Positions 29,641-45,753 of a stretch of DNA of 64,000 nt are shown in pieces. Within the stretch, counting starts at the first letter, position 1. The number at the start of each line of letters is the position of its first letter. A program made the position numbers and the translations under genes. A model generated the notes under the pieces. That model searched no databases. It was not told the origin of the DNA and worked only from the letters and a program-made list of their open reading frames with translations. Source of the stretch: Bosea sp. 124 (GTDB lineage Bacteria; Pseudomonadota; Alphaproteobacteria; Rhizobiales; Beijerinckiaceae); contig NZ_PZZM01000001.1 of NCBI RefSeq assembly GCF_003046175.1, positions 4,915,001 to 4,979,000 on the forward strand. The letters run 5' to 3'.

Positions 29641-30366
29641 ATGCTGACACGCAAACAGTTCGAACTGCTTCGCTTCATCCAGGAACGCCTGCGCGAAAGC
29701 GGCGTCCCCCCTTCCTTCGACGAGATGAAGGATGCGCTCGACCTGCGCTCCAAATCCGGCATCCATCGCCTGATCATGGCGCTGGAGGAGCGCGGCTTCA
29801 TCCGCCGGCTGCCGAACCGGGCGCGCGCGCTCGAGATCATCAAGCTGCCCGAGGGCGTCGGTGCCGGCGGCCAGCCGACCGCGCGGGGCCGTTTCAGCCC
29901 GTCGATCGTCCAGGGCGGTCTCGGTAAGGACAGCGGGCTCGGCAAGGTCAGGCCGGTCGAGACGGCCTCCGACGACATCCGCACGACCATCGCGATTCCG
30001 GTGATGGGCCGCATCGCGGCCGGCACGCCGATCTCGGCGATCCAGAGCCGCAGCCACAGCGTCGCGCTGCCGGCCGACATGCTGGGCGCGGGCGAGCATT
30101 TCGCGCTCGAAGTCCGCGGCGACTCGATGGTCGACGCCGGCATCCTCGACGGCGACACGGTGGTGATCCGCAAGCAGGACAGCGCCAATACCGGCGACAT
30201 CATCGTCGCCCTGATCGACGACGAGGAGGCGACGCTGAAGCGGCTGCGCAAGCGTGGCTCCTCGATCGCGCTGGAGGCGGCGAACCCGGCCTATGAGACG
30301 CGCGTGCTCGGCCCGGACCGGGTCAAGATCCAGGGCCGGCTCGTCAACCTGATGCGGCGCTACTGA
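29641..30366 (+). CDS. lexA: LexA SOS repressor
   Basis: Repressor of 241 residues with an N-terminal winged helix ([16 protein letters not shown]) and an S24 self-cleavage domain. The cleavage site Ala127-Gly128 is in GRIAAGTP, catalytic Ser162 in RGDSMVDAG and catalytic Lys200 in EATLKRL. A long linker between domains (about 70-115) is characteristic of alphaproteobacterial LexA. It regulates itself and, within this window, the imuA cassette. It converges with and overlaps the comEC 3' end by seven bases. Confidence 0.97.
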
Positions 30367-31725
30367 AGCCGTTCCGGATTGGCCGGATCGTCCACCGGCT
30401 GGGCGGCGGCCGGCCTGGCCGGCGCTGATGCTGGAGCCTCGACCCGGCGGCTCCAGGGCCGCTCGCCGGAGCCCTGTTCCGACGTGTGGCTGCGCCATGC
30501 CCCTCCCCGGCGGATGAGCGCTGTCGCGCCATCGCGGGCCAGCGCCGTGCGGTCGACGAGTTTCGTGGCGCAAGGCGCGGTCCAGGGGATCGGCGTGACG
30601 ACGAGATCGGCGCGGCGACAGTCCTCGATGATGGCGAGCCGGTCGCGCGCATAAGCGATGCTGCGGCCGTCCCTGGTCGCGATGACGCAGCCGGCATCAT
30701 CGCAGGCAGCCGCCTGTCGCAAGCTGGCGTCGTCGGGGTTGCGGCCATCGCCGTCGGCGGTGAGCCATTGCTGCAGGACGAAGCGGCTGGGCTTGCCGGC
30801 GACGACCAGCAGGCCGTCCTTGCCGCGCACGGCAATGCCCGAGCCGTCACGCTCGATCAGGACGTCGGGTCGCTCGGGCTTGGCCGCGACCGCGACGCCG
30901 ACGACGAGCGGCAGGAGCGCGAGCAGGCGCAGTCTGGTGGTCCAGAGGGTGAGCCAGAGCAGCGTCGCGGCGAAGCAGGCGAGCGCGGCCGGGCCGAAGG
31001 CCGCGATGACGAGCGTCGAATGGTCGATGGTCGCGACCCAGTGCGCCAGCTTCAGGACCACGTCCGAAGCGAACCCCATCAGCCACCAGGCCGGAGCATC
31101 GAGCCCGAACGGATAGGCGAGCACGCCAAAGACCGCCGCCGGCATCACGCAAAGCGACACGAAGGGCAGTGCCAGCGCGTTGCCGAGCAGACCGAATGGA
31201 TTGAAGGTCTGGAAGTGATAGGCGCCGAAGGGCGCTGTCGCGGCGGTCGCCAGCAGGGTCGTGACGATGACGCCGACCGAGGCGATCCAGAGTGGGCCCA
31301 GCGGCCAGGGCAGCAATGATGGCGGGTGCGGACGGGTGCGGTTCTCCCAACGCTCAGCGAAGGCGATCAGGGCCGCCACCGCGCCGAAGGACATCTGGAA
31401 GCTCGGCCCGAGCAGCGCGTCGGGCTCGCGCAGCAGCACGATCATCGCCGCCAGCGCCAGATTACGCATGCTCAGAGCCGGCCGGTCGACCAGGATCGCC
31501 CCGAGTATGACCAGCGTCATGATCAGCGAGCGCACGGTCGCGACCTCGGCGCCGGAGAAGACGCAATAGCCGATGGCGCCGACCATGGCGGCGACGGCGG
31601 CGATCTTCTTGACCTGCCAGTGCAGGGCGAGCGTCTGCGAGAGGGCGAGCAGCGCCCGCACCAGCCAGAAGATCGTGCCGGCGGCGAGCACCATGTGCAG
31701 GCCCGAGATCGAGACGATGTGGTAG
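30360..31725 (-). pseudogene. comEC: comEC, 3' part (C-terminal competence domain), split by island
   Basis: About 455 codons of the DNA-uptake channel ComEC/Rec2, beginning in the middle of the conserved motif TAYHIVSISGLHM, where the island joins, and continuing through the Competence domain (ATVRSLIMTLVILGAIL, FQMSFGAVAALIAFA) with many transmembrane helices to the C-terminal soluble tail. Upstream of YHIV the frame runs into island sequence and a stop after nine codons. The missing N-terminal part is at 44851-45753 on the same strand. Translation could restart at the Met of GLHM (31694), but the protein would lack the OB-fold domain and first helices, so DNA uptake through this ComEC should be lost. 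Confidence 0.93.
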
Positions 31726-31737
31726 GCGGTTAATCCG
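31714..31737. other. left island junction (attL-like site)
   Basis: The core ACGATGTGGTAG (31714-31725) belongs to comEC (codons for YHIV on the minus strand). To its left is comEC sequence; to its right begins the island, with GCGG then TTAATCCG at 31730-31737. TTAATCCG stands four bases after the core at all three module left ends. Confidence 0.85.
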
Positions 31738-31740
31738 GCT

Positions 31741-32330
31741 TCAGGATACCGTCAGCACGTATGCGATCGCGCTAGATGCGGTCTGAGGCTGGCGAAAGTC
31801 TCCGCCATCAGCGTGGACAGCCGCTGCGCGGAGTACTGATCGCGCCTTCTCGATGTCGCTGGCGTCCGTAAGGGCTATCCACAGCAGGATCTGCTGAACC
31901 CGCAACGCAAAGGCCTCGCCGGAGCGGACGTCACCGGCATCCATGCGAGCGAAGGCAGCCTGTCTCTCCTAGAAAGCGGTCCGGACGACGTCGACGATCT
32001 GCTCCCGGTCGCCGCCTTCCTGCTCGATGATGTAGTCCACCGTGCGGAACAGTGCCTGGTTCGAAACCGCCAGGAAATTCCGGTCCTCGCCGTTCTCACG
32101 ATCGTTCCACCAAGCGTAGATGAAGAAGGCATAGGCGGCGCTGGCCAGCGAGACGCGGCCGCGCTCCAACGGTCCGGCCCTATGGACGCCTCGCTCAGCC
32201 TCTCCTGCAGCAGCAAGGCGATATCCGTCGCCGTCCGCTTGAACTTCCGCTGTACGATCTCGACAGGTGTACCGCTGACGTCCTTTTCCTTGCCGCCGAA
32301 CATGCGGCCGATCAGATTGCCGATGCCCAA
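31741..32330 (-). pseudogene. broken hypothetical gene at the left end of module A
   Basis: Three consecutive minus-strand reading frames together look like one former protein of about 195 residues: MGIGNLIGRMFGGKEKDVSG..., then SLASAAYAFFIYAWWNDREN... ending VDVVRTAF, then AFARMDAGDVRSGEAF... ending in AIAYVLTVS. A frameshift near 32165 separates the first two parts, and a TAG plus frame change near 31970 separates the last two. No family is recognised. The gene stops only 16 bases from the island boundary, showing how closely cargo is packed against the end. Confidence 0.55.
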
Positions 32331-32381
32331 GTTAGCCCCTCGCCTCGCCAGGTTTCATACTAGGCCGTAATCCATGGCAGG

Positions 32382-32648
32382 CTAATTCGAGGCCGTTGGC
32401 CCAGGGTAAACCACTCGCACTTTTCTCTGATTGGTCGGCGCGGCTTCGGTGCCGGAGGAAATGGGTGTCGCGAGCGTCTCCGGCGGTTTCGGAGCCGCGA
32501 GCTCCAGTTTGGCAGAAGGACGCGCTCGACTGGTTAGATCCAGTCCAGGTGAACCGTGGCTTTTGCCTTGGTGCTCCGCGCCGGCTGATGTTGCCATCAG
32601 GATGCCCAGGACCGCCGAGCCAACCGGTACCGACAAGATGCGTCGCAT
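32382..32648 (-). CDS. small secreted protein of unknown function
   Basis: A protein of 88 residues from MRRILSVPVGS, with GGGGA five bases upstream of the ATG; an ATG four codons earlier (32660) is possible. A signal peptide ends about GAEHQ. The mature part is Pro-, Ser- and Lys-rich, without a recognised domain. The signal peptide and ribosome site are the only positive evidence that it is a gene. Confidence 0.5.
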   Translation of the reverse strand: MRRILSVPVGSAVLGILMATSAGAEHQGKSHGSPGLDLTSRARPSAKLELAAPKPPETLATPISSGTEAAPTNQRKVRVVYPGPTASN

Positions 32649-32682
32649 CAGAATCCCCATTTAACCGAGCCTGAGATGAGCG

Positions 32683-32712
32683 AGGGGCCGGTCCTTTCGG
32701 AGCCGGCCCCTT
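32683..32712 (-). terminator. hairpin after the first DUF1236 gene
   Basis: GGGGCCGG-TCC-TTTC-GGA-(G)CCGGCCCC forms a strong stem-loop 12-40 bases past the stop of the minus-strand gene 32724-33140. There is no long T run on the minus strand, so termination strength is uncertain. Confidence 0.5.
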
Positions 32713-32723
32713 GCGACGCGAAA

Positions 32724-33140
32724 TCAGTCGATGACCTGCACGATGCGTCCAGTGTCGGGATCGACGAGCACGGTGCGGTTGTTGACTACTGTGTAACGAT
32801 AGGTGGTCGCGCCGTATTCACGCGGGACTTCGTAATAGGTCACGCCCTGGCGCGGCAGGGTCGAGCCGACCACGACCGGCTCGGCATAGGTATAGGACGG
32901 ACGGCGCTGCTCGGTGACATAGCTCTGGAAGCGCGGGGTGTTGTCGCCGATGATCCCGCCGACCACGGCGCCGCCGACACCGCCCACTACCGCACCAACC
33001 GGGCCGCCGACGATGGCACCGCCCACGGCACCGGTGAGTGCGCCGCTCGCTGCACCACCCTGTGCGCCCGGAGGATTCTGCGCGATCGCGACGGCGGGGA
33101 CTGCAGCCAGAGCGAGAACCAAAGCAAACTGCTTGATCAT
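32724..33140 (-). CDS. DUF1236 secreted protein, paralogue 1
   Basis: Protein of 138 residues: signal peptide (MIKQFALVLALAAVPAVAIA), a Gly-rich hydrophobic stretch of repeated GGAVVGG units (about 28-68) resembling glycine-zipper segments, then a DUF1236-type C-terminal domain (SYVTEQRRPSYTYAEPVVVG, GVTYYEVPREYG, YRYTVVNNRTVLVDPDTGRI). It is probably periplasmic or envelope-associated; the function of DUF1236 is unknown. GAGGAG lies eight bases upstream of the ATG and an EcfG-type promoter about 58 bases upstream. A close paralogue is at 34342-34767 on the other strand. Confidence 0.88.
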   Translation of the reverse strand: MIKQFALVLALAAVPAVAIAQNPPGAQGGAASGALTGAVGGAIVGGPVGAVVGGVGGAVVGGIIGDNTPRFQSYVTEQRRPSYTYAEPVVVGSTLPRQGVTYYEVPREYGATTYRYTVVNNRTVLVDPDTGRIVQVID

Positions 33141-33198
33141 AATGAAGTCTCCTCGCCGCCATACGTCGGGACGATCCCTGGTTGGCAGCCGGGGCGAT

Positions 33199-33223
33199 AA
33201 CTCGGCTAAATTACTAAGGTTCC
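33199..33223 (-). promoter_or_regulatory. EcfG-type stress promoter before DUF1236 paralogue 1
   Basis: Minus strand reads GGAAC-N16-AGTT, one base from the EcfG consensus GGAAC-N16/17-CGTT, ending 58 bases before the ATG. An inverted repeat CCAAACT-GCGT-AGTTTGG (33222-33239) overlaps its -35 end and could be an operator. Confidence 0.6.
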
Positions 33224-33239
33224 AAACTGCGTAGTTTGG

Positions 33240-33771
33240 CAAACAATAAAAGTCATTCATGTGGTGTTCATTTTGCAAGCAAATTTTTTCGACCATGAAG
33301 AACTAACAACGCTAGTTGAATTTATGTTCATCTGGCGTTCGGGAGCGCGCTTGCCTGAGTGAAATCAATAAAAATGCCATCGCGTCTGCAACGTCATGTC
33401 GTGCGCGCTATTGGGAGCCATGCCCTAATAGACTGAAATTGGGACGGCGGCGGGCCCGGAAGTGGGCACCCCGTGGCCGCCTGCTACGCTAGCGCGAAGC
33501 ACGTGGCCAGTCGTTGGTTTGGTCCTATGCTGGCCGAGCGCAGTCCGCCCCTGCCGCCCTCATCGTGCTCGTCGGCCTCTATCCCGGATAGATCGGTTGG
33601 CAGAGACTTCAGCACGCCGTCGCGTGAGCCCTAGATCTGTTTCGTCACGGGCGGCTGTCCGGCATACGGAACGCCGCCATCGCGACGAGGTGCATGACCC
33701 GGATACGGCCGCCAAGCGCGACAGAGGCCGTGGCCAGCGAGCGATGCGCGGGATGGGCCGCCTCGTGATTT
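33240..33771. other. gene-free stretch, AT-richer
   Basis: About 530 bases between two minus-strand genes. The first 150 are noticeably AT-rich compared with the window. Open frames here (for example plus strand 33462-33785) have no start context or protein-like composition. I see no recognisable RNA, repeat or gene remnant. Confidence 0.5.
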
Positions 33772-34101
33772 TCAGCCCGTCTTAAGTGATGGCTTCTCGG
33801 TGCATACGGTGCTCTCGATCGGCTCGCCTTGTTCATTCAGCCACTGCCACTGCTTCAGGTCAGGCTGGAAGAGCAGTGTTGGTAGACCTTGATCGCGTGG
33901 AACCAGTTTACGTTCTTGGAGAGCGTACTGGCGAGCCTTCCCATCAACTTCGACCGTCACTTCGCCCGCCGCATTGGCCTGCTCGATTACGATCCGCCCC
34001 GCCTTGAACTGACACGTGAAGACTGGGTTTGCCACCGGGTCCGTTTCAGCCGCCAAGGCCAGACTGATAGGCATGAGCAGAAGCGCGACGTGCAAAATCA
34101 T
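33772..34101 (-). CDS. small secreted protein of unknown function
   Basis: A protein of 109 residues from MILHVALLLMPIS, with GGGAGA seven bases upstream of the ATG. A signal peptide ends near LAAET. The mature part has two Cys (FTCQFKAG and STVCTEKP) near its ends, likely forming a disulfide, and a beta-rich pattern (GRIVIEQANAAGEVTVEVDG). No family recognised. Codons upstream of 34101 in the same frame are not protein-like. Confidence 0.7.
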   Translation of the reverse strand: MILHVALLLMPISLALAAETDPVANPVFTCQFKAGRIVIEQANAAGEVTVEVDGKARQYALQERKLVPRDQGLPTLLFQPDLKQWQWLNEQGEPIESTVCTEKPSLKTG

Positions 34102-34271
34102 GTTGTTCTCCCAAGGTACCGGACAGGGCGGAAAGCCTTGTCCGGGAAAAAGGTTCCTTTGGGGAACAACCCATCGATCGGGAGCAGTCGTGACAGGGTC
34201 GCGTCCTCGAACAGGGTACGCCGAGAGCAGCTCAAATAGCTCTAACCCCCTCATTATGAACGGTTATTCAT

Positions 34272-34296
34272 GGAACGGACGCTTTCGGCCGCAGTT
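34272..34296 (+). promoter_or_regulatory. EcfG-type stress promoter before DUF1236 paralogue 2
   Basis: GGAAC-N16-AGTT on the plus strand, 45 bases before the ATG at 34342. Same elements and spacing as the site before the paralogue (33199-33223). Confidence 0.6.
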
Positions 34297-34341
34297 TAGA
34301 TTGCGACTGAGGGGCAACATGTCCTCGAAAGGGAGAAGACC

Positions 34342-34767
34342 ATGATCAAGAACATCGCACTCATCGCCGCCCTCGCTCTCGTCCCCGCGACTGCCTTCGC
34401 GCAATCCAACTCCGGCGCGGCTGGTGGCGCAGCCAGCGGCGCGGCTACTGGTGCTGTCGGCGGTGCCATCGTCGGTGGCCCTGTCGGAGCCGTGGTGGGT
34501 GGCGTCGGTGGTGCGGCTGCTGGCGCGATCGTCGGCGGCATCGCAACCGAGAACCGCACCGAGTTCCGCACCTATGTGACGCAGCAGAAGGTGCCTTCGG
34601 TGGCGTACCGCGAGAAGGTCGTTGTCGGCGCGACGTTGCCCGACACGGTCACTTATCGCGAGGTTCCGGCTCGCTATGGCAAGACCGAGTATCGCTACAC
34701 GGTGGTCAACGACCAGACCGTGCTGGTCGAGCCGAAAACGCGCAAGATCGTTCAGATCATCGAGTGA
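34342..34767 (+). CDS. DUF1236 secreted protein, paralogue 2
   Basis: Protein of 141 residues: signal peptide ending at AFAQS, Gly/Ala-rich stretch with repeated GGAIVGG and AVVGGVGG units, and a DUF1236-type C-terminal domain (TYREVPARYGKTEYRYTVVN, TVLVEPKTRKIVQII). It is strongly similar to the protein at 32724-33140 over its full length, so the pair arose by duplication. AAAGGGAGAAG precedes the ATG. A textbook terminator follows within nine bases of the stop. Confidence 0.88.
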   Translation: MIKNIALIAALALVPATAFAQSNSGAAGGAASGAATGAVGGAIVGGPVGAVVGGVGGAAAGAIVGGIATENRTEFRTYVTQQKVPSVAYREKVVVGATLPDTVTYREVPARYGKTEYRYTVVNDQTVLVEPKTRKIVQIIE

Positions 34768-34775
34768 TCAAATCG

Positions 34776-34807
34776 GAGCCCGCCCTTTTCAAGGGCGGGC
34801 TCTTTTT
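34776..34807 (+). terminator. Rho-independent terminator
   Basis: Perfect 12-base stem GAGCCCGCCCTT / AAGGGCGGGCTC with a TTC loop followed by TTTTT, directly after the DUF1236 paralogue 2 stop. Confidence 0.95.
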
Positions 34808-34831
34808 CCGCGAAATCAGGAGCGACAAGCT

Positions 34832-35104
34832 ATGTTCAAGACCCTCTTGCTGGCTGCGGGCGTTGCCGCAACAGCGCTTATTACGGCTCCCGCACAGTCT
34901 CAGGTGCGGGTCGAGACGCGCATCGAGCGATCTGACGACGACGGACCGCGCTATCGGGAACGGCGTGGGTACGAGGAACGTCGAGGCGGGTATGAGCGTC
35001 GGATCGTGCGCAGCCGCTTCGGCGATGACTGTCGAATGGTGGAAAAGCGTCGCGTCAACCGGTTCGGCGAAGTTGTCATACGGCGTACGCGTATCTGCGG
35101 GTGA
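34832..35104 (+). CDS. small secreted Arg-rich protein
   Basis: A protein of 90 residues from MFKTLLLAAG, with AGGAG nine bases upstream. Signal peptide ends near AQSQV. The mature part is very rich in Arg and Glu with RYRERRGYEERRGGYERR repeats and ends in two Cys (DDCRMVEKRR, RTRICG). This composition is seen in small periplasmic proteins of Rhizobiales, without known function. It begins 25 bases after the terminator, so it depends on readthrough or an unrecognised promoter. Confidence 0.75.
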   Translation: MFKTLLLAAGVAATALITAPAQSQVRVETRIERSDDDGPRYRERRGYEERRGGYERRIVRSRFGDDCRMVEKRRVNRFGEVVIRRTRICG

Positions 35105-35180
35105 CACCATGAGGCGGTGGGCAGTTGTAGCGCCCGCCGCTTCTCTGCTTTTCCAGCAATGGTTTCGACAGGAGAGTCCT

Positions 35181-35465
35181 ATGCGAACGCTCGTTCTCGT
35201 TGCGGTGGCCATGTTGGGCTTCGGCTCGATCACGCCATCGACTTCACAGGCCGCCCCGGTGGCGGGCCCAACAGCGATCGAGACGCCAGACCACGTCGAG
35301 CAGATCAAGAAGGGTGGACACGGGTACAAGGGCCATAAGGGTTGGGGCGGGTCCCGCAATTGGAACCGTGGACGTGGCTATGGTCATCATTATGGCAGCC
35401 CACCTGCGCATGCTCGCGCCTATGGTCGGCGGGCTCGTGACTTCGGATACTACCGTTATCGGTAA
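35181..35465 (+). CDS. small secreted Gly/His/Tyr-rich protein
   Basis: A protein of 94 residues from MRTLVLVAVAML, preceded by AGGAGAG. Signal peptide ends near SQAAP. The mature part has a GGHGYKGHKGWGG stretch and a Tyr/Arg/His-rich tail (RGYGHHYG, DFGYYRYR), low-complexity and probably disordered; metal binding through His is conceivable but not shown. It follows the Arg-rich gene by 76 bases on the same strand. Confidence 0.72.
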   Translation: MRTLVLVAVAMLGFGSITPSTSQAAPVAGPTAIETPDHVEQIKKGGHGYKGHKGWGGSRNWNRGRGYGHHYGSPPAHARAYGRRARDFGYYRYR

Positions 35466-35472
35466 GTGAGAT

Positions 35473-35503
35473 GGCGACGGTGGGTGAAATAGCGACCGTC
35501 GCC
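35473..35503. terminator. stem-loop after the Gly/His-rich gene
   Basis: Perfect nine-base arms GGCGACGGT / ACCGTCGCC with a 13-base loop, starting eight bases past the stop at 35465. No T run follows, so it could be a weak terminator or an mRNA-stabilising hairpin. Confidence 0.45.
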
Positions 35504-35542
35504 AGTATTGTCGCGCGCTGGCTTTAACGGAAGAATGGTACA

Positions 35543-35851
35543 ATGCGCCAAGGGCAACAGGCTTTACGACAGGCCTTCAGGCGCTTCGAGCAGGAGGTAC
35601 CTCTCTGGCTCGGTTCTTGGATGCGTTGGCTTCGGCACCCAGCATCTCGCTGGCTTCGCATTCCTGTAGGCGTGCTGCTCATGCTCGGCGGGGTGTTCTC
35701 AATCCTGCCAGGGCTTGGCATCTGGATGCTGCCGCTCGGTCTCCTCCTGCTCGCCACCGATGTTGCGCTTCTTCGAAAGCCCGTCGCGAGGTTTACCGTC
35801 GCGAGTGCAGATCAATGGGCCCGTATTCGACAATGGCTCGGGCAGAAGTGA
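35543..35851 (+). CDS. small membrane protein of unknown function
   Basis: A protein of 102 residues: an amphipathic N-terminal stretch rich in Arg/Trp/Gln, then one or two membrane segments (PVGVLLMLGGVFSILPGLGI, MLPLGLLLLATDVALL) and a basic C-terminus (DQWARIRQWLGQK). Similar short proteins with the LPGLGxWMLPLGLLLLA pattern occur in other alphaproteobacteria as hypotheticals. A weak GGAAGA precedes the ATG. Confidence 0.7.
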   Translation: MRQGQQALRQAFRRFEQEVPLWLGSWMRWLRHPASRWLRIPVGVLLMLGGVFSILPGLGIWMLPLGLLLLATDVALLRKPVARFTVASADQWARIRQWLGQK

Positions 35852-35962
35852 CTGCTCCGCTGCTCACAGGCAACGCTGCGGATCCTACAACTTGGTCGCA
35901 TATGCGACCCAAGAGCGCACGATTTCTCAAAAAATGTGTCAAATTGGCGCGGAACTGGGCGG

Positions 35963-36139
35963 GATCTCGGCGACATCACGACCGAAGTCGTCACGCTCTC
36001 CTGCTGGACGTCGATTGAGGCGATCAAGGCGTTCGCCGGCGACGACCATGAGCGCGCCCGCTGCTATCCGGAGGACGACCGTTACCTGCTGAAGAAACCC
36101 GATGAGGTGGAGCACTCCGACGACGTGATCGAGGGCTGA
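35963..36139 (+). pseudogene. C-terminal remnant of an antibiotic-biosynthesis-monooxygenase-like protein
   Basis: The frame DLGDITTEVVTLSCWTSIEAIKAF, then HERARCYPEDDRYLLKKPDEVEH, resembles the C-terminal half of small ABM-fold proteins in Rhizobiales. The N-terminal half is absent: upstream sequence is not protein-like and no good start exists, though ATG 35936 could open the frame. Treated as a truncated gene. Confidence 0.55.
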
Positions 36140-36169
36140 TTGGCCCCGACGAAATGGCAGCGATTGTCA

Positions 36170-36194
36170 GGAACCCGTCTCCGGCATTTTCGTT
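36170..36194 (+). promoter_or_regulatory. EcfG-type stress promoter before DUF6894 gene and HWE kinase
   Basis: GGAAC-N16-CGTT, an exact match to the EcfG consensus, 33 bases before the ATG at 36227. The kinase gene starts 61 bases after that gene ends, so both may be transcribed from it. Confidence 0.75.
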
Positions 36195-36226
36195 TGAGGA
36201 TCGGGGACCATGGGACTTGTAGACGC

Positions 36227-36523
36227 ATGCCTCATTTCAGGATCGCGACCGACGCCGGCAACGGCTTGGAGCCCTTCGATGAGCCGCTGGAATTCCCGGA
36301 CCGGGACGCGGCCACCTTAGATGCCCAGGTGGCGCTGACGGACATGTGCCGCGAGAACCTGCCGCATGCCGGGAAAGCCGACTACCGCGTCCAGGTCGAG
36401 GACGAGACCGGCAAACCCGTTTATAAGGCATCGCTCAAGTTCGATGCCGAAACCGAGACCGACGACAAGGCTGACAGCGGCGCTGCCGCGTCTAACATGC
36501 GACCGGCGAGATACGTGATTTGA
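36227..36523 (+). CDS. DUF6894-like small protein
   Basis: Cytosolic protein of 98 residues starting MPHFRIATDAGNG, with the DUF6894-type pattern of an acidic N-terminal half (EPLEFPDRDAATLDAQ) and a C-terminal VQVEDETGKPVYKASLKFDA. The family is abundant in stress-induced loci of Rhizobiales; its function is unknown. A perfect EcfG-type promoter stands upstream and the HWE kinase gene follows. Confidence 0.75.
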   Translation: MPHFRIATDAGNGLEPFDEPLEFPDRDAATLDAQVALTDMCRENLPHAGKADYRVQVEDETGKPVYKASLKFDAETETDDKADSGAAASNMRPARYVI

Positions 36524-36584
36524 CAGGCGCAGCTCATAAATCCCGTGCTAGCCCGGACGTGGGCTAATCACGAGAAGAGACTTG

Positions 36585-37598
36585 GTGCCGATCGCGACGA
36601 GAATTTTTGACAACCCGCAGATGCTTCGGGTCCTCACCGACGCCATGCCGCAGATGGTCTGGTCCACCCAACCGGACGGGTTCCACGATTACTACAACGC
36701 CCGCTGGTACGAGTTCACTGGCGTGCCAAAGGGCTCGACCGATGGCGAGGGCTGGAGCGGCATGTTCCATCCCGAGGACCAGGACCGGGCTTGGGGACGC
36801 TGGCGGCATGCGCTGGAAACCGGTGAGCCGTACGAGGTCGAGTATCGCCTGAAGCACCACTCCGGCGAATACCGATGGACGTTGGGCAGGGCGCTGCCGG
36901 TGCGCGACGGCGACGGTAAGATCGTGCGCTGGATCGGCACATGCACCGACATCGACGAGGCCAAGCGCGCAGCCGAACAGAACCAGCTTCTCAGCCAGGA
37001 ACTCGCCCACCGCATCAAGAACATCTTCGCCGTGATAAGCGGTCTCATCGGCCTGTCCGTCCGGCAGGCACCCGAATGCAAGGACTTCGCGACCTCGCTG
37101 CGCGAACGGATCGCGGCCTTGGGCCGGGCCCATGAGTTCGTCCGACCGCACAGCGTGGAATCCCGTCCAACCATTGGTCGCACAACACTGGGTGGGATGC
37201 TCCGCGAGCTGTTCGAGCCCTATCCCGCCCTCGACACCGGCAACATCACGATCGTCGGCGACGATGTCCCGGTCGACGACAGGGGCGCGACGCCCTTCGC
37301 CCTGCTGTTCCACGAACTGGCCACCAATGCGGTCAAATATGGCGCGCTGTCGACAGACGACGGCAAGGTGGCCATCTCGATCTCTATCGCAGGCGACGAT
37401 GTCGTCGTCATCTGGAAGGAGATTGGCGGCCCCGCAGTGTCAGGTGCGCCCGAACGGACAGGCTTCGGGTCACGGCTTTCCGAGGTCGCAGTTCGCAACC
37501 AGCTCGCCGGCGATTTGCAGCGGTCCTGGGAGCCAGACGGCCTGCGGCTAACCGTGCGCGTGCCGGCCGCCAACCTGGCGAGAGGCGACATCGCCTGA
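36585..37598 (+). CDS. PAS-domain sensor histidine kinase, HWE family
   Basis: Soluble sensor kinase of 337 residues with no membrane helix. A PAS/PAC fold occupies about 10-127 (TDAMPQMVWSTQPDGF, YEVEYRLKHHSGEYRW); the phosphorylation His is near 142 in ELAHRIKNIFAVISGL, followed by the catalytic domain with N-box HELATNAVKYGAL and the W-x-E of the HWE group (IWKEIG). HWE/HisKA_2 kinases commonly feed the PhyR-NepR-EcfG stress switch. GTG at 36585 was chosen with AGAAGAGA upstream; a TTG one codon earlier is possible. Its 3' end overlaps the response regulator gene by 51 bases, tail to tail. Confidence 0.9.
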   Translation: MPIATRIFDNPQMLRVLTDAMPQMVWSTQPDGFHDYYNARWYEFTGVPKGSTDGEGWSGMFHPEDQDRAWGRWRHALETGEPYEVEYRLKHHSGEYRWTLGRALPVRDGDGKIVRWIGTCTDIDEAKRAAEQNQLLSQELAHRIKNIFAVISGLIGLSVRQAPECKDFATSLRERIAALGRAHEFVRPHSVESRPTIGRTTLGGMLRELFEPYPALDTGNITIVGDDVPVDDRGATPFALLFHELATNAVKYGALSTDDGKVAISISIAGDDVVVIWKEIGGPAVSGAPERTGFGSRLSEVAVRNQLAGDLQRSWEPDGLRLTVRVPAANLARGDIA

Positions 37599-38310: not shown

Positions 38311-38327
38311 CTGGGAGCCATTTAGGG

Positions 38328-38629: not shown

Positions 38630-38637
38630 GCGGCGTC

Positions 38638-39462
38638 ATGGCCAAGTTACGCTCGCAAAACATAGATCCCGTCGAGGTTCTCGCTCGCATCGGTTATGCG
38701 GCACGAGGGCTGGTCTACACAATCGTCGGGTGGCTCGCTGTTCTAGCAGCCCTTGGCGGCGCGGCACGCGCGCCGGACAGTAAGACGGCGCTATCTGCCA
38801 TCCTGACACAGCCGTTCGGCGCGGTGCTGCTCGGCTTGGTTGCGGCCGGCCTGGTCTGCTTTGCCATCTGGCGCATCGCGCAAGCTGCTTTAGATGCGGA
38901 TCGTCTTGGTACCACAACAAAAGGATTAGTTCGTCGCGTAGGCTTTGCTGTGAGTGCAATCATCAACGCCGGTCTCGCATTCTCAGCCGTGCAGATGATC
39001 ATGCGGACTTCTGCCGTGGGAGGCGGAGACAGCGCAGCCCGCGACTGGACCGCATATTTGCTGTCATTCCAATTCGGCCAAATTCTGGTTGGCGTCGTCG
39101 GGGTTGTTGTCTTCGCCGCAGGGGGAGCTAACGCATGGAAAGGCTACAAGGGCCGTGTCATGGATCGAGTTACTGCCGACGGTCAGGTTGAACCTTGGCT
39201 GGTGAGGCTAGGACGGGCTGGCTACCTCGCCCGTGGCCTCGTATTCGCGCTTATAGGCGGCTTTTTCATCAGCGCGGCTTACCAAGCCAGGGCCAGCGAG
39301 GTTCAGGGCCTGGCGGGTGCGCTTCGGACATTGCAGGAGCAGCCTTATGGCTGGGCGTTGCTGTTGGTGACCGCGCTTGGCCTATTCGCGTTTGGTGCCT
39401 TCCAAATTGCTCTTGCGCGCTACCGCCGGATAAATCCAACTGGGTTCACTGCTTCAGTTTAG
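38638..39462 (+). CDS. DUF1206 membrane protein
   Basis: Integral membrane protein of 274 residues with six predicted helices arranged as three repeats of the DUF1206 unit. Each repeat opens with the R-x-GYxARG signature: ARIGYAARGLVYTIVGW, RRVGFAVSAIINAGLAF (degenerate) and GRAGYLARGLVFALIGG. Function unknown; the family is common in Actinobacteria and Rhizobiales and often stress-linked. It is the only cargo gene of module B apart from the IS element. ATG 38638 rather than GTG 38611 is preferred. Confidence 0.88.
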   Translation: MAKLRSQNIDPVEVLARIGYAARGLVYTIVGWLAVLAALGGAARAPDSKTALSAILTQPFGAVLLGLVAAGLVCFAIWRIAQAALDADRLGTTTKGLVRRVGFAVSAIINAGLAFSAVQMIMRTSAVGGGDSAARDWTAYLLSFQFGQILVGVVGVVVFAAGGANAWKGYKGRVMDRVTADGQVEPWLVRLGRAGYLARGLVFALIGGFFISAAYQARASEVQGLAGALRTLQEQPYGWALLLVTALGLFAFGAFQIALARYRRINPTGFTASV

Positions 39463-39770
39463 CTTTGGATCAAGTTCGCCGCGAGGAGTCTCGTGGCGGA
39501 CTAAACAGGCCGCTGCAAAAAAATTCTCATCAGTGTCGACCTTTTCGCGTTTCTGGCTACGGGTTTGTGGCCTGCATAGTTGAAAACCAGAACCGAAGAT
39601 GCGCCATCGGATTATGACATCTCTCATTCTTGTTGCGGCGCGTTTATCGCTAAAACTGCGCAGGTCGTTTCCCCTGATCTGTCACGTCCGGATGTAATGC
39701 GCCAATAGCTGCCGTTCGGGCCTTGCCAGGAACCGAACGTGCGAGGCGAAGGTGAGTCGGGACTGCTTTC
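39463..39770. other. gene-free stretch before the IS element
   Basis: About 310 bases with no convincing reading frame. The sequence at the IS insertion point (CTTTCGACC joined to CATAGCGGAC) is continuous once the IS and one target copy are removed. I see nothing else recognisable. Confidence 0.45.
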
Positions 39771-39774
39771 GACC

Positions 39775-41346
39775 GAGGCTGTGTAAAAACGCGCTGCCTG
39801 CCTTTGATCAACTGGGGCGGCGAGCCCGCGATGAGGGGCAGTGTCAGGCCCGGATCGCTTCCATCAGCGGCTTGGCGCCGATGATGGCGATGACGCGCTT
39901 GAGGTTATAGGCGAGGATGTGGAGGCCGATTTCGGTCTTCACGTTGGGCAGGCGCCTCGTCAGGAAGTGCGTCGCCCCCATCCAGGCCTTGATCGTGCCG
40001 AAGGGGTGTTCGACGAGCCGCCTTCGTTGGCGCATGGCGCCAGGCGTCAGATCCATCCGCCGTTGAAGGGCGTCGATGATCGCCTCGTGTTCCCAGCGGG
40101 TGACCCGCCGTTCGACGCTGGGCGTGCACTGAGCCTTGAGGGCGCAGGCCTGGCAACTAGCGCGATCCCAGTAGCGGTGGAGCGTCATTCCCCGCTCGAC
40201 CGTGGTCATATGGCGCGGCAGCAGCGCGCCGGATGGGCAGCGATAGACATCCTGCTCGGGCAGGTAGACGAAGTCCTGCTTGCCGAACCGGCCCTCGGCC
40301 TTGGCGCCCGAGGTCAGCGGCTTGGGCAGATAGGGCGTCACGCCCAGGGCCTCGCAGGAGCGGATCTCCTCGCCGGAGAAGTAGCCGCGGTCGGCCAGCG
40401 CATCGAGCTTTTCCGCGCCCATGGCGTTCTTTGCCTTGGCGGCCATGGCTGCGAGCTGCTCGCGGTCGCTGCCGGTCATGACCACGTCGTGGGCGACGAT
40501 CAGGTGATGCTTGGCCTCGACAGCGGACTGGACGTTGTAGCCGACAATCCCACTGCCGCGTCCGCTGGTGGCCATCGAGCGAGCGTCCGGATCGGTCAGC
40601 GAGATCTGGCCTTCAGGTGAGGCAGCGACTTGCGCCTCCATGGCCTTGAGCATCTTCATCTGCTCGCGCAGCCGCTCGACCTTCTCCTGCAGCCGTCCCG
40701 AGCGCGCCTCGGCGGCCTCGTCTTCCTGACGATCGGCCGTGTCGAGGTCACGCAGATAGCCCGCGATGTGTTCAGCCACCTGCTGCAGGCGCCTCGTGAG
40801 CTTGTGGGCCGTGAAGTTCTTGTCGCGGCTGTTCACTGCTTTGAACTTGCTGCCGTCGATGGCGACCAGGGTGCTCCCGAACAGGCCGATCTGACGGCAC
40901 AGCACCACGAACTGAGCGCAGGCGCCCTGGATCGCGGGCCCATTCTCCTTCCGGAAGTCGGCGATGGTCTTGTGGTCGGGCGCAAGCCTCCCCGTCAGCC
41001 ACATCAACTCGACATTGCGCCCCGCCTCGCGTTCCAGCCGGCGGCTGGACTGCACCTTGTTCAGGTAGCCGTAGATGTAGAGCTTGAGCAGCGTGGCCGG
41101 GTGGTAGGCCGGGCGTCCTGTCGCTGCCGGCGTCACGCCCTCAAAACCCAGGACCTCCAGATCCAGGTCATCGACGAACACGTCGACCACCCGCACCGGG
41201 TTCTCATCCGCCACATAGTCGTCCAGGCAATCGGGAAGCAGCGTCGGCTGCCGGCGGTCGCAACCCTCAACGAAGCGGCTCAAATCCGACCTCCCGACTG
41301 CAACGTCAGGAGTCTACCCGAACCAGCACGGTTTTCACACAGCCTC
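39775..41346. mobile_element. IS1182-family insertion sequence, complete
   Basis: A 1572-base element with terminal inverted repeats starting GAGGCTGTGTAAAAACG (left) and GAGGCTGTGTGAAAACCG (right, reverse complement), flanked by a 4-base direct repeat GACC at 39771-39774 and 41347-41350. It contains a single intact transposase gene. Both ends and target copies are intact, so the insertion is recent compared with the decay around it. Confidence 0.9.
39844..41283 (-). CDS. IS1182-family transposase
   Basis: DDE transposase of 479 residues. N-terminal DUF772-type domain (GRPAYHPATLLKLYIYGYLN), catalytic region beginning at VAIDGSKFKAVNSRDKN (first Asp) with the second Asp in ADRGYFSGEEI, a zinc-like Cys cluster (CPSGALLPRH, CQACALKAQC) and the C-terminal Glu in VEHPFGTIKAWMG. 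A coiled-coil-like insertion spans about 190-235 (LQEKVERLREQMKMLKAMEAQ-type segment). The frame is uninterrupted, so it is probably active. Confidence 0.93.
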   Translation of the reverse strand: MSRFVEGCDRRQPTLLPDCLDDYVADENPVRVVDVFVDDLDLEVLGFEGVTPAATGRPAYHPATLLKLYIYGYLNKVQSSRRLEREAGRNVELMWLTGRLAPDHKTIADFRKENGPAIQGACAQFVVLCRQIGLFGSTLVAIDGSKFKAVNSRDKNFTAHKLTRRLQQVAEHIAGYLRDLDTADRQEDEAAEARSGRLQEKVERLREQMKMLKAMEAQVAASPEGQISLTDPDARSMATSGRGSGIVGYNVQSAVEAKHHLIVAHDVVMTGSDREQLAAMAAKAKNAMGAEKLDALADRGYFSGEEIRSCEALGVTPYLPKPLTSGAKAEGRFGKQDFVYLPEQDVYRCPSGALLPRHMTTVERGMTLHRYWDRASCQACALKAQCTPSVERRVTRWEHEAIIDALQRRMDLTPGAMRQRRRLVEHPFGTIKAWMGATHFLTRRLPNVKTEIGLHILAYNLKRVIAIIGAKPLMEAIRA

Positions 41347-41439
41347 GACCCATAGCGGACGCGGTGTTCCAATGCCGATTGCCAGTCCGCCATTCTATAG
41401 GGCTCGCCCGGAAGCAGACGTTCTATACGTCGGCTATGG

Positions 41440-41509
41440 CCAAAAGCGTCAGCTGCCCCCTCCCGGCGCAGGAATCCATAATTCAACAATGTGGTAGGTG
41501 GTTAATCCG
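41440..41509. other. internal att-like junction between modules B and C
   Basis: Right end of B (AAAAGCGTCAGCTG, then GCAGGAATCCATAATTCA), core ACAATGTGGTAG (41486-41497, one base different from the others), then left end of C (GTGG, TTAATCCG at 41502-41509). Confidence 0.85.
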
Positions 41510-41598
41510 AGTTCGAGGTCTCCCCCCGACAACGAGGTGTCCGCTACCAGTGCCAGGCACTTGGGGGTGCAGTGAACGCGGTGGTCACGGCTTCAAGG

Positions 41599-41940
41599 TC
41601 AGCGCGGATTTTCCGGGAAAGTCAGATAAAGCTCTCGAACTGCTTCGATGTAGCTGGCCAATGGGCGCTTATCGCAGAATGACCGCAAGAACTGCTTTTT
41701 TGTCGGATTTGGGACGACCCGGAGATCGCGCGTTGGTTCGCCGCGAGAACGAACCGCCTCATTGATCGCGCTCCAATAGCCCTGAGCCCAGGCGAACGAC
41801 TGCACTTCTGCGACTGCCGGGTTTCGCCTGTAGAATTCTGCGAACTCAGCGCATGGAACGATCCCAAGCCCTGCGGTCACCGGCATCTGAGCATTGGCTG
41901 AGCCGGTCAAGATTATCAGGGCAATCATAACGCGACGCAT
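41599..41940 (-). CDS. small secreted protein of unknown function
   Basis: A protein of 113 residues with a signal peptide (MRRVMIALIILTGSANA). The mature domain includes CAEFAEFYRRNPAVAEVQSF, AQGYWSAINEA and FLRSFCDKRPLASYIEAV; the two Cys probably pair. The GYxSAxN pattern followed by a helical C-terminus recalls small periplasmic Rap1a/Tai-like immunity folds, but the resemblance is weak. AGGAG lies about five bases upstream of the ATG. Confidence 0.7.
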   Translation of the reverse strand: MRRVMIALIILTGSANAQMPVTAGLGIVPCAEFAEFYRRNPAVAEVQSFAWAQGYWSAINEAVRSRGEPTRDLRVVPNPTKKQFLRSFCDKRPLASYIEAVRELYLTFPENPR

Positions 41941-41955
41941 CTCAACTCCTGCCTG

Positions 41956-42234
41956 CTAACATCGCGGCCGATGGTATCCGCCTTTCGGCACGGCGTCTCG
42001 GATTAGGACCGCGTCCACGATCGCATCAGCAAGCTCGTAAACCGGCTTGCCAGCGTGGCGGGTCAGGGTCTGGACGATGGTGGCGTGGAGATCGTCGCGG
42101 TCTGACTTTTCGGCTGCGAGCTTTTCGCGCTCAAGTTTGCGGCGGAACGCTTCCATATTGCGGTGCGCCTCAGCGTGCGTCCTGCCGCATAAGATTAGAT
42201 GCGCGAGCTTCCTGCGAAACCGGCAGCAGGCCAT
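41956..42234 (-). CDS. hypothetical protein
   Basis: Frame of 92 codons with an Arg/Lys-rich, helical N-terminal half (NMEAFRRKLEREKLAAEKSD) and a C-terminal half ETIVQTLTRHAGKPVYEL-like (ATIVQTLTRHAGKPVYELAD). No family recognised. The start touches the recombinase remnant on the opposite strand, and an internal Met at about residue 27 could be the true start. Placement is tentative. Confidence 0.4.
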   Translation of the reverse strand: MACCRFRRKLAHLILCGRTHAEAHRNMEAFRRKLEREKLAAEKSDRDDLHATIVQTLTRHAGKPVYELADAIVDAVLIRDAVPKGGYHRPRC

Positions 42235-42449
42235 TTGAGCGATCTCTCATTCTGGATCGTGCTAGCTCTGGTCGGACCGCTGCCAAGGCTAGGGGCGTGA
42301 AGTTCGGGCGAACGCCCGCGATGACCCCGCAGAAGTTAGCTGTTGCGCGTGAGTTGCTAGCTCAGCCTGACAACACTATGAGCCAGGTCGCCGCAGCAAT
42401 CGGTGTTCACCGGGCGACGCTTTACCGAGCATTGGGCGCGCGCAACTGA
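42234..42449 (+). pseudogene. C-terminal remnant of a serine recombinase (resolvase/invertase)
   Basis: The plus-strand frame reads FERSLILDRASSGRTAAKAR, then GVKFGRTPAMTPQKLAVARE, and ends with MSQVAAAIGVHRATLYRALG before a TGA. This is the end of a small serine recombinase: the FER helix, the KARGVKFGR hinge and the Hin-type HTH_7 domain. The catalytic N-terminal domain is absent upstream. It is the only trace of a recombinase in the island. Confidence 0.8.
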
Positions 42450-42461
42450 GTGGCGCAACTC

Positions 42462-43772
42462 TCAATGGTCGGGATATCGAGTTTGGTATCGCTCGTCAGG
42501 CGCGAGCCAATCAGCGAGATAGCTGAGGGGATCTTGCTCGCCCAGCATCGCTCGCGCCAGCGCCAGGCGGCTTTGAATGTGCTCCCGGCGATCCTCACCG
42601 AGGTGCTCCAGCCGCTTCTCCGCCTCCACGAAGAAGCGCTCAACAGCGGTAGCCGCCGCCCACTGCTCCATGATTTCGGCCAACTGCTTCTTGCTATGCG
42701 ACAGCGCCTGCTCGACGGCTCTCCGATCCTCTTGCCGGCGATACCGCTCTTGCGCCTCGGCCCATTCTTTGCGGCGCTTGGCGGCAGCCTTTTCCTCAGC
42801 GTCGATCAGCGCCTGTAGTTCAGCCTCGGAACCGTGAAGCCGTGCGACGATCGAGGGAACGAGCGACTTCAGGCCAGCTGCATCTGTTTCCTGCCAGCTT
42901 GCTGACCATTCGATGTTCGCCAGCGGGCAATAGGCCACAAACCGAAACCGGCCGCAGGGTAGGTCTTGCTCGGTCGTCCATGAGTGCGTGAGCTGCCAGG
43001 GTCTGGCGGAGCGAACCAGCTTGCTGTCTTCCCGAACATAAGAGCCGTCGAGATATCGCATCGTCACGCGCTCGGTCATCTCGGTCAGCACCAGGCCGAC
43101 TGGGATAGAGCCGACGTAGGTGACCGTGGGACGGCGCGGAGACCAGATGCTGCCTGTCTGATACCGCCCGTACTTTCGATCCTTGCGCGGGACCTCCTGC
43201 TCGTCCACGTGCCTGCGCCGCATCTCCTGATCTGCAGGCGCAAACATGACGCGATGTCCCTTCAGGTCGAGCGCGTTGTAGATCTCGTTTGCGATGTCGA
43301 GTGCGGTAGATAGGTGGTCGGCCGACGCCACAATGTCGGGCAAGAGATATTTGTACGGCCGCAAAAACTCGTTCTTCTCGTCGGTGCGCGTTTTGCGGAA
43401 GGACTCGTCGACGCCGATCAGCATCGGGTGGCGTGCCGGTCTTTGTGGGCGATCGGCCGCTTTCCGCTCCACGCGACGGTACACACGCTTTGGCAGGGGC
43501 GCTAAAAGCCGAGTGCCTTTACTCCAACGGGCATGGTCTCCAGGCAGTGCAGCGGGCAGCTCGGGCCGAGGCGCCTCCTTCCCAACCGCCTTCTTCTGCC
43601 AGTACCCGGCGGGCGGTCTGGGCACGTTGAGCGCTTCGCAGATGCGAGCGAACTGGTAGTGGTTCATGCCGAGTTTTTCGGCCAGGTGGTTGATCGGCGT
43701 GGTCCAGACCCGCTCGAATAGGTCTTCACGCGTGATGCCAGCGGGCGGTGATGCTGCGTTCTCCGGGTCCAT
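42462..43772 (-). CDS. large protein of unknown function with N-terminal HTH-like region
   Basis: A protein of 436 residues from MDPENA; a Met 14 codons earlier is possible. The first 65 residues (ITREDLFERVWTTPINHLAE, then GMNHYQFARICEALNVPRPP and GYWQKKAVGK) match a helix-turn-helix-like module common at the start of hypothetical proteins in bacterial islands. The middle has no known fold; about 345-400 is a charged coiled coil (EEKAAAKRRKEWAEAQERYR). It converges with the recombinase remnant. A role in DNA binding is plausible from the N-terminus only; a defence role would be speculation based on DUF3883 next door. Confidence 0.75.
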   Translation of the reverse strand: MDPENAASPPAGITREDLFERVWTTPINHLAEKLGMNHYQFARICEALNVPRPPAGYWQKKAVGKEAPRPELPAALPGDHARWSKGTRLLAPLPKRVYRRVERKAADRPQRPARHPMLIGVDESFRKTRTDEKNEFLRPYKYLLPDIVASADHLSTALDIANEIYNALDLKGHRVMFAPADQEMRRRHVDEQEVPRKDRKYGRYQTGSIWSPRRPTVTYVGSIPVGLVLTEMTERVTMRYLDGSYVREDSKLVRSARPWQLTHSWTTEQDLPCGRFRFVAYCPLANIEWSASWQETDAAGLKSLVPSIVARLHGSEAELQALIDAEEKAAAKRRKEWAEAQERYRRQEDRRAVEQALSHSKKQLAEIMEQWAAATAVERFFVEAEKRLEHLGEDRREHIQSRLALARAMLGEQDPLSYLADWLAPDERYQTRYPDH

Positions 43773-43928
43773 TTGGTGCTCACGGTCGACGTGGTTTCGG
43801 CCTCGCAATCTCAAGCAGGAGCGCGATGGCGTGAAGTCCGAATGACAGCACGGAGCGTGCGTCGCCGGGGCAGGCGCCCTTCAGATAGCTTCTCGATTTC
43901 CGAGGCGATCGTCGCTACGAAGTGAGCT

Positions 43929-44770
43929 GTGCCAACCCTACCGGATACCCAAACTCGCGCTGCAGGAACCGACTGGGAACCCGTCGAGGTCGCAGCCGTG
44001 GTCGCCGAATACTTCGCGATGATGGCCAATGAGGTGGCCGGCCGACCGTACACCAAGCGCGAGCATAATCGGGCGCTACAGGCTTTGACCGGCCGCTCTG
44101 CGGGCTCCATCGAGTTCAAGCACAGAACATCAGCGCCGTATTGTCCGAACTGGGGCTGCCATGGCTGCGCGGATACAAGCCTCGCGCAAACTACCAGGAT
44201 GCACTCGTCGCCGAGGTCAGCGGGCATCTACCATCCGCGGCCTGGTTGCAATCCGTACCCGTAGAGCGCCCGGTTCCAGCAATTCCAGTTGGCGACCTAT
44301 TTGTGCCACCGCCAGAGCGCCGCCGGAATAGGATCACTCAGCCCCTGGAGCGCCTGGTGCGCACATTCGATCCGGCCGAGCGGGACGAGCGCAATAGGAG
44401 CTTGGGCAGGGCCGGTGAAGAGTTTGTCGTAGAGGTCGAGGAGCGGCGCCTGCTCGGCGCTGGTCGGCGTGATCTGATGGGCAAGGTTCGATGGGTCGCC
44501 AGGGACGATGGCGATGGTGCGGGCTACGACATCCGCTCGTTCGAGGATGACGGGCGCGAGACGCTGATCGAAGTGAAGACTACTCGCGGCGCGAGGACCA
44601 CGCCCTTCTATCTGACCCGCAACGAGCTGGCTGTAGCCGGTGAAAGGCCAGACGCCTGGCGGATCTACCGCGTCTTCGAGTTCGGCGAGGCTTCCCGGAT
44701 ATTCACGCTCAAGCCGCCGCTGGAGGAGACCGTCAGTCTGAGTCCGGCGACCTGGTCAGCGTCATTCTAG
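43929..44770 (+). pseudogene. DUF3883 protein with a one-base frameshift
   Basis: Two overlapping plus-strand frames form one protein. The first (43929 on) reads PVEVAAVVAEYFAMMANEVA and SAGSIEFKH; the second continues NISAVLSELGLPWLRGYKPR and ends in a DUF3883 domain (GRAGEEFVVEVEERRLLGAG, ETLIEVKTTRGARTTPF, YRVFEF). At 44121-44127 CACAGAACATC stands where CACCAGAACATC would keep the frame. DUF3883 has a PD-(D/E)xK-like fold and is found in restriction and defence proteins. Either the gene is dead or the base is a sequencing error. Confidence 0.82.
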
Positions 44771-44795
44771 ATGACCGCTCTGGCCGGTTTCGGAA

Positions 44796-44850
44796 GCGTC
44801 AGTTACACCCCCCTCCCCGCGCAGGGATCCAGAATTCAACGATGTGGTAG
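44796..44850. other. right island junction (attR-like site)
   Basis: Module C ends with AAGCGTCAGTTAC (44796), GCAGGGATCCAGAATTCA (44821-44838) and the core ACGATGTGGTAG (44839-44850), after which comEC resumes. Reading from comEC the N-terminal protein would run YHIV then EFWIPARGGGCN and stop. Confidence 0.85.
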
Positions 44851-45753
44851 ATGCCGGCCGCGCGCAAATCGGTGTTGGTGGTCTCGGTGATCAGACCGCG
44901 CTTGCCCGTCACGAGCGCGGCCGCCATCGCGCCGGCCTGCCCCCCCGCCGATCTCGGCGATGCGCCGGGTCAGGGCGTTGCGCGCCCGGTCGATCGTCGC
45001 AGCCAGCACCAACTCGGTCGGCGGAGGCCGTGGCGGCGGGGTCAGCGCGATCTTGCCGGGAATGCTGCCGACGGCACCCAGCCCGCGAAAGAAGGCGTCC
45101 CGGCCGAAATCATACCCGCCGGGCCGTGCCGGCCCCGGTGGCGGCAGCAACCGGGCCATGGCCGCGATATGGTCCCCCGGCGAAACACTGCCGCTGCGAA
45201 TATTGACGCGGACGCGCCTGGGCCAACGCTCGGGCTCGAGCCCGGCCAGGCTCGTCACCAGGATGACGAGGCGTGCGCCGGCATCGCGGGCCTCGACCGA
45301 TTCCACGAAGCCGCTGACCTGGCCAATACGGGGCCGGTCGAGCATCGGCGCCGCTACCGTGGCGGTGCGCCAGGTCGCCGCCGCGAAACCGGCGAAGGCG
45401 GCGGCACAGCCGAGAGCGATCAGCGGCGCGAGGCGCCGCCGCCGCAGGGCAAATGCGGCCCCGGCGGCGAGCCCGAGGCCGGTCAGCGGTGCCCAGAGCG
45501 CAGGCTCGCGATCGGCGAGGAAGTAGAGCAGGATGCCGGCGCCCATCATCACCGGCAGCCAGAGGAAGAGCCGCCGGCGTTCGGCTTCGAGCGCAAGCGC
45601 CCGGAAGAACCCGCCGCGCCAGGCGGTGAGCGTTACGCCGAGCCCCGGGCCGCCAAGTACGAAGGTGGGCAGGCGCGAGGGCAGCACGTCGGCCCGGGCG
45701 CCGCGCGCGGGCCCCGGTGCCGGCATCCCCTGCCCTGGTCGCGCCGGCTGCAT
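44851..45753 (-). pseudogene. comEC: comEC, 5' part (N-terminal domain), split by island and frameshifted
   Basis: About 300 codons encoding the ComEC N-terminus: membrane helices (LFLWLPVMMGAGILLYFL), the DUF4131/OB-fold region (PRIGQVSGFVESVEARDAGA, VRVNIRSGSVSPGD) and ARNALTRRIAEIGGG. There a run of seven C (44940-44946, G on the coding strand) puts the frame out by one; with six, it reads QAGAMAAALVTGKRGLITET then DLRAAGIYHIV up to the island junction. Starts at 45753 (MQPARPG) or 45726 are possible. The continuation is 13 kb away at 31725. gltX lies divergent upstream. Confidence 0.9.

Follow-up and report, generated by a model that had tools for sequence, protein, structure and literature searches.

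The window analysed here is a 64,000-nt stretch of the Bosea sp. 124 genome (contig NZ_PZZM01000001.1, positions 4,915,001 to 4,979,000) in which the competence gene comEC, flanked by lexA-like and gltX-like genes (names read off the translations and a first-pass annotation of the same DNA), is cut at the codons YHIV|SISGLHM by 13,125 bp of inserted DNA (31726-44850). Both halves match comEC of congeners: the 3' part corresponds to residues 298-755 of an intact 756-aa ComEC (89%), and the 5' part matches across residues 1-270 (83%). Insertion took place at the N-terminal edge of SISGLHM, in agreement with the first-pass annotation. That annotation described a single 13.1-kb island between a pair of 12-bp repeats, a description that does not hold: the 12-bp core ACGATGTGGTAG has three exact copies in the window (starting at 31714, 38373, and 44839; 0.00 expected by chance) and a fourth with one change (ACAATGTGGTAG, at 41486), so that the insertion consists of three stacked segments, A, B, and C. 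The features of this array are listed below, with the scores of its end sequences against position weight matrices (PWMs).

30360-31725, minus strand: comEC 3' part, from YHIVSISGLHM through the stop codon; PF03772 (Competence domain), E 2.1e-46
31714-31725, plus strand: junction J1, comEC 3' part / segment A, core ACGATGTGGTAG
31726-38384: segment A, 6659 bp
31726-31743, plus strand: left end of A (GCGGTTAATCCG...), PWM 21.2 bits
38325-38372, plus strand: right end of A (AAGCGTAAG...CGCAGGGATCCAAAATTCG), PWM 53.1 bits
38373-38384, plus strand: junction J2, A / B, core ACGATGTGGTAG
38385-41497: segment B, 3113 bp
38385-38402, plus strand: left end of B (GTGTTTAATCCG...), PWM 23.5 bits
41438-41485, plus strand: right end of B, PWM 47.8 bits
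41486-41497, plus strand: junction J3, B / C, core ACAATGTGGTAG
41498-44850: segment C, 3353 bp
41498-41515, plus strand: left end of C (GTGGTTAATCCG...), PWM 24.5 bits
44791-44838, plus strand: right end of C, PWM 54.7 bits
44839-44850, plus strand: junction J4, C / comEC 5' part, core ACGATGTGGTAG
44851-45753, minus strand: comEC 5' part; PF13567 (DUF4131), E 3.2e-17
44940-44946: run of seven C, site of a one-base frameshift by comparison with congener comEC, possibly a sequencing error

All three segments lie head to tail in one orientation. Each of the first three cores is followed directly by a common left end (GYGKTTAATCCG), and each of the last three is preceded by a common right end of about 48 bp, comprising AAGCGTMAGYT, 12-15 bases, and CGCAGGRATCCANAATTCR. 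The best non-member scores in the window are 13.3 bits for the left end and 12.4 bits for the right end, a gap that indicates distinctness and is not independent proof since the matrices were built from the scored sites themselves (the left one together with a congener end described below). Copies of the attachment (att) site are thus present at both outer ends and between the units, as in cis-mobilizable elements (CIMEs) and pseudo-staphylococcal cassette chromosome (pseudo-SCC) elements. A 12-bp target duplication made by a transposon was considered and rejected, because the copies within the array lie precisely where conserved ends meet. The GC content is 0.615 in A, 0.586 in B (without its insertion sequence, IS, and tail), and 0.618 in C; outside the IS the inserted DNA ranges from 0.56 to 0.62, against 0.68-0.69 in the flanks. 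An inverted repeat, AGCAGAC...GTCTGCT, also occurs close to the right end of both A and B (38283-38312 and 41406-41435); by eye, its stems differ in bases between the two segments with the pairing kept.

According to the first-pass annotation, removal of the inserted DNA rejoins the two comEC halves exactly. At the DNA level this stands, as the joined sequence aligns with the intact comEC (756 aa) of a congener (G014) over 2,228 columns at 84%; the reading frame is not recovered, owing to the frameshift at 44940-44946. For the same reason the reading frame of the 5' part does not run through to DLRAAGIYHIV, as had been thought: the best congener matches of its translation lose similarity at residue 273 of 301. 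The gene therefore appears to be broken twice, by insertion and by frameshift, the second break possibly being a sequencing error, and if the frameshift is real, exact excision of the array alone would not restore comEC. Severing of comEC has presumably abolished DNA uptake, a loss to which the frameshift would add. None of the loci examined has an intact comEC with sequence of the array at the same place.

The same codons are cut in other members of the genus, which we sampled with one genome per species (67 genomes). Each comEC half was matched in 65 of them, the two without a match (G073 and G079) being kept in the total. Four genomes have comEC cut at this core, namely that of Bosea sp. 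124 and three congeners (G084, G029, and G020), and three of the four carry a large serine recombinase (LSR) gene at the junction, which supports the proposal that insertions are site-specific and fall in a conserved motif of comEC. The G084 element measures 8.2 kb and encodes an LSR of 536 aa. In G029, an element with a 533-aa LSR is joined to the comEC 5' part, and the contig with the 3' part ends at the core. In G020, an LSR of at least 420 aa is joined to the 5' part and the left end of the Bosea sp. 124 array is joined to the 3' part; both of these genomes are split over contigs here, and the G020 assembly breaks between the LSR and the left end. The right ends seen in the LSR elements of G084, G029, and G020 differ from those of the array.

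This G020 left end at the comEC core was found by pattern search and provides independent support for the left end as defined here. It is the only other place where the left end is found exactly in the genome_contigs collection, from which close neighbours of this genome may be missing (SEEM01000062.1, a metagenome-assembled genome, MAG, of Hyphomicrobiales). Allowing up to three mismatches, the left-end pattern occurs in 5 of the 67 genus genomes, and a reversed control pattern gives one match; four left-end-like places in G064, G076, and G090, with three mismatches each, were taken as chance. The exact right-end pattern occurs in no other genome among 397 of the order (only four of them of this genus) and, with up to three mismatches among 61 relatives, only here and at one place in G047; that match, with three mismatches, lies at the start of a gene read by eye as rpsG and was likewise taken as chance. 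Neither array end, nor any match to the G029 LSR, was found among viral contigs, and 50,697 phage records contain no near match to the inserted DNA. Fourteen plasmid records match it, the eight listed doing so only over the stretch of an IS1182-family element in segment B.

A second site in comEC, further downstream, is cut in two other congeners, G017 and G088, by elements with tyrosine integrases (78% identical to each other) that share the 13-bp core CAGACCTTCAATC; in G088 the comEC 5' part is broken over contigs. Altogether, comEC is cut at one of two exact sites in 6 of the 67 species genomes, in five of the six beside a recombinase gene, and two enzyme classes are involved. In five further genomes (G028, G030, G034, G065, and G080) comEC is partial, in pieces, frameshifted, or interrupted by stops; these were not counted as insertions, and comEC loss may be commoner in the genus than the insertions show. 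In a survey of the order, 129 of 140 genomes had a comEC match at 1e-15, and a two-part insertion pattern was seen only in Bosea sp. 124, in a search that would miss an insertion with its halves split between contigs or too weak for that threshold. The only other order genome with two comEC matches, G183, has them overlapping, as in a frameshift. These counts do not bear out the suggestion that many hosts would offer such an element its site; because only 1 of the 140 order genomes shows a two-part insertion, the hotspot looks genus-bound in this sample.

Several of the comEC islands encode candidate defence proteins. PADLOC-positive genes occur in four of the five islands that were partly scanned (four proteins of G029, none of G020), and some of the hits are to broad families such as kinases and AAA ATPases. 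The elements of G017 and G088 carry TIR, NsnA-like, and PD-T7-3-like candidate defence genes, and the comEC island of G084 has an AAA ATPase and DUF4435 pair (L007:7516-9761) resembling AriA/AriB of PARIS.

No recombinase was found in the array itself. The whole genome has 11 matches to PF00589 and four to PF00239, none of them inside the inserted DNA (4946726-4959850 of the contig) with stops read through; five congener recombinases compared with it gave no clear remnant (best E 0.015), and the three congener comEC LSRs gave no match below E 0.6. The array therefore fits a recombinase-less kind of element, as judged by these two families and five congener enzymes. It lacks the internal LSR gene of an autonomous LSR element and shares with such elements insertion at an LSR attachment site on the chromosome (attB), the core being common to G084, G029, and G020. 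Among the 18 open reading frames of the array scanned with Pfam, many small ones lying outside the scan, the only transposase is that of IS1182, and no phage families appear. Tn7-like transposons carry TnsABC-type transposase genes and produce a 5-bp duplication. Integron cassettes hold about one gene each and lie next to intI, unlike the segments here, which measure 3.1-6.7 kb and in which no tyrosine recombinase was found.

In a tree built with 22 LSRs of the genus and class, a supported group of four unites the three comEC LSRs with that of G016; G016 and G084 are long branches in it, and their join was flagged as possibly false. Explaining comEC targeting takes two changes on this tree, 41 of 500 shuffles need no more, and a single change suffices in 8% of the bootstrap trees, so that one origin of comEC targeting is not established by the tree. 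The other 19 LSRs have no comEC match beside them, within short flanks.

The geometry of the ends bears on the enzyme. The two ends of the G084 element form an attP dyad centred on the AC of G-AC-GATGT with 17 of 24 matches (99th percentile 15 and maximum 17 in 2,000 random pairs), and the LSR crossover was therefore placed there. Using this centre, the best 12-base stretch of the G020 LSR half-site pairs at 10 of 12 positions with the G020 left end, and at 9, 9, and 10 with the left ends at J1, J2, and J3. The chance rates are 5e-5 (random 40-mers) and 8e-4 (shuffled left ends) for 10 or more of 12, and 9.5e-4 (random 40-mers) for 9 or more. Of the ten bases that follow the AC, 10, 10, and 9 agree with comEC itself (at J1, J2, and J3), and 8 do so in G020 (counted by hand). 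Subject to the cautions given below, the left ends of the array look like LSR half-sites.

The segments carry the following genes.

32724-33296, minus strand: DUF1236 protein (A), PF06823
34342-34767, plus strand: second DUF1236 protein (A), PF06823
36582-37598, plus strand: PAS/HWE histidine kinase (A), PF08447 and PF07536
37548-37991, minus strand: response regulator (A), PF00072, E 1.5e-12
38611-39462, plus strand: DUF1206 protein (B), PF06724, E 6.3e-49
39844-41283, minus strand: IS1182-family transposase (B), PF05598 and PF01609; named after plasmid records
42462-43814, minus strand: 450-aa protein (C), paired with a NOV_C gene also in congener G070
43929-44770, plus strand: NOV_C gene (C), PF13020, E 8.2e-23; PADLOC PDC-S36, 2.4e-77, a candidate defence family

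Segment A also encodes a DUF6894 gene, and part of it has 83% likeness to another stretch of the same chromosome. The IS in B (about 39773-41360) matches two other places in this genome at 100% (rounded); an origin of the array driven by IS1182 was rejected, given that the IS lies inside B and has these two further copies. The 450-aa protein of C has no family above cut-off in Pfam, NCBIfam, or PADLOC. It forms with the NOV_C gene a pair that recurs in G070 at 79% DNA identity, relative to which the NOV_C gene is frameshifted between about 44099 and 44159. A 292-bp stretch of another congener (L039 in G090:C9, 2553-2844) is 99% identical to window positions 42360-42651 and has genes for a CBASS-type cyclase and an MzaC-like protein close by; judged by this identity, a piece of C appears to have been exchanged recently. 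Elsewhere in the window, ARAGORN calls a tRNA-like feature at 7049-7141; its anticodon is incomplete and Rfam, which reports nothing in the window at gathering score, does not match it, so that the call is probably spurious.

We lean, with moderate confidence, towards reading the array as recombinase-less elements that accumulated in tandem at the attB used by LSR elements which target comEC, an arrangement formally like that of pseudo-SCC. The comEC site (codons YHIV|SI, window-strand core G-AC-GATGT) would serve as a chromosomal attB for mobile elements, and A, B, and C would belong to one end-family, having landed head to tail, each bounded by a core copy. We infer that the enzyme was most likely an LSR of the kind present in the three congeners, acting in trans or since lost. 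A left half-site that copies 9-10 of 10 comEC bases would keep much of attB at J1 after each integration, so that the next element could land there and the array grow; if an LSR acts in this way, A would be the newest arrival.

Several points weigh against this reading. The 12-base block test was chosen post hoc, after viewing the alignment; the whole-site score of G020 is 11 of 24, which is background; the left ends, being alike, give pairings with the G020 half-site that are not independent; and the G029 half-site pairs with them at only 6-7 of 12 positions. The right ends of the array pair poorly with its own left ends (4-5 of 12 at best), and no dyad appears between its own ends, the best-of-22 scores of 10, 8, and 11 lying at background (mean 11.1). 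In addition, an LSR of the G029 type has no match in this genome at 1e-40, G020 may hold one element or two, its assembly breaking inside, and a 12-bp block of identity is equally normal for a tyrosine integrase. The misfit of the right ends is the main gap in the LSR account. A tyrosine integrase is a live rival as builder of the same array, its gene lost or located on a departed helper element. The identical 12-bp core at the junctions, the conserved right ends (48-70 bp, with room for possible arm sites), and the failure of the array's own ends to form an LSR-type dyad would all suit such an enzyme, for which tandem accretion is ordinary. We nevertheless hold it to be less probable, as the tyrosine-integrase elements seen in comEC of this genus (G017 and G088) use the other site with core CAGACCTTCAATC, all three other elements at the present site carry LSRs, and the array left end pairs with an LSR half-site.

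Whichever enzyme acted, the array might have entered once, as a pre-formed composite island. The right-end plus left-end junctions J2 and J3 are those expected from a multimeric circle; the cargo, however, differs between segments, which argues against a simple multimer, and we regard a single entry as unlikely. An assembly artefact is far less credible still. The region does contain two single-base frameshifts, and the joins are known from assembled sequence, but the genome is one contig, an independent assembly (a MAG) shows the left end meeting comEC at the identical base, and congeners are cut at that base. Returning to tandem accretion by an LSR, a bolder version, which we put forward only tentatively, makes comEC a growing cassette platform on which LSR-less elements with candidate defence and signalling genes pile up in trans while transformation is switched off. 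Each insertion would then largely rebuild the landing site, and transformation, which could delete the elements, would be off: a kind of SCC system docked at the DNA-uptake channel. The comEC LSRs, with their natural attB and attP halves, are directly testable recombinases.

The ccr enzymes of SCC elements are serine recombinases. Composite SCC and pseudo-SCC at orfX resemble the array in being tandem elements at one site, bounded by direct repeats, some of them without ccr (PMC6243372, in part). The array differs from SCC in its target, an internal comEC motif that is destroyed by insertion instead of the 3' end of orfX; no serine recombinase was found inside it, its location is comEC and not orfX/rlmH, and we claim no sequence relation between the two. 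Mobile genetic elements (MGEs) in comEC itself are already known from streptococci, where Phi1207.3 (Tn1207.3), Phi10394.4, and Tn1207.1 insert site-specifically in comEC/celB at a GA dinucleotide (PMC4260502, in part). The likeness to Phi1207.3, site-specific interruption of comEC and serine recombinases, is drawn at the level of the gene; as described there, Phi1207.3 and Phi10394.4 are prophages of 52-59 kb and Tn1207.1 is a defective transposon of 7.2 kb, with macrolide-efflux cargo (PMC4260502, in part). The present array instead consists of small, stacked, recombinase-less segments in a genus of the order Hyphomicrobiales, and neither a phage family, among the 18 reading frames scanned, nor a serine recombinase like those of a Phi1207.3-type prophage was found in it. 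What is new is the two-site comEC hotspot in this genus together with the stacked array; we know of no report of comEC-targeting elements in Bosea in the literature covered, which leaves out most subscription papers. Also close are the LSR elements of G084, G029, and G020, which share the genus and the core with the array (in G020 also the left end) and differ from it in carrying an LSR.

Other competence genes are likewise hit repeatedly by unrelated MGEs, some of them with defence systems: comM of Acinetobacter baumannii by AbaR and defence-bearing elements (PMC11472951, in part), and comYC, comFA, comK, and comM in the cases compiled in PMC4774983 (in part). These involve another gene and other enzymes than the array. 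A comEC deletion strain of Acinetobacter is non-transformable (PMC11472951, in part), and a comEC insertion that inhibits transformation is cited in PMC4774983 (in part). The comEC insertions of Bosea would extend to a further genus the idea, found in these two sources, that MGEs disable transformation for their own protection.

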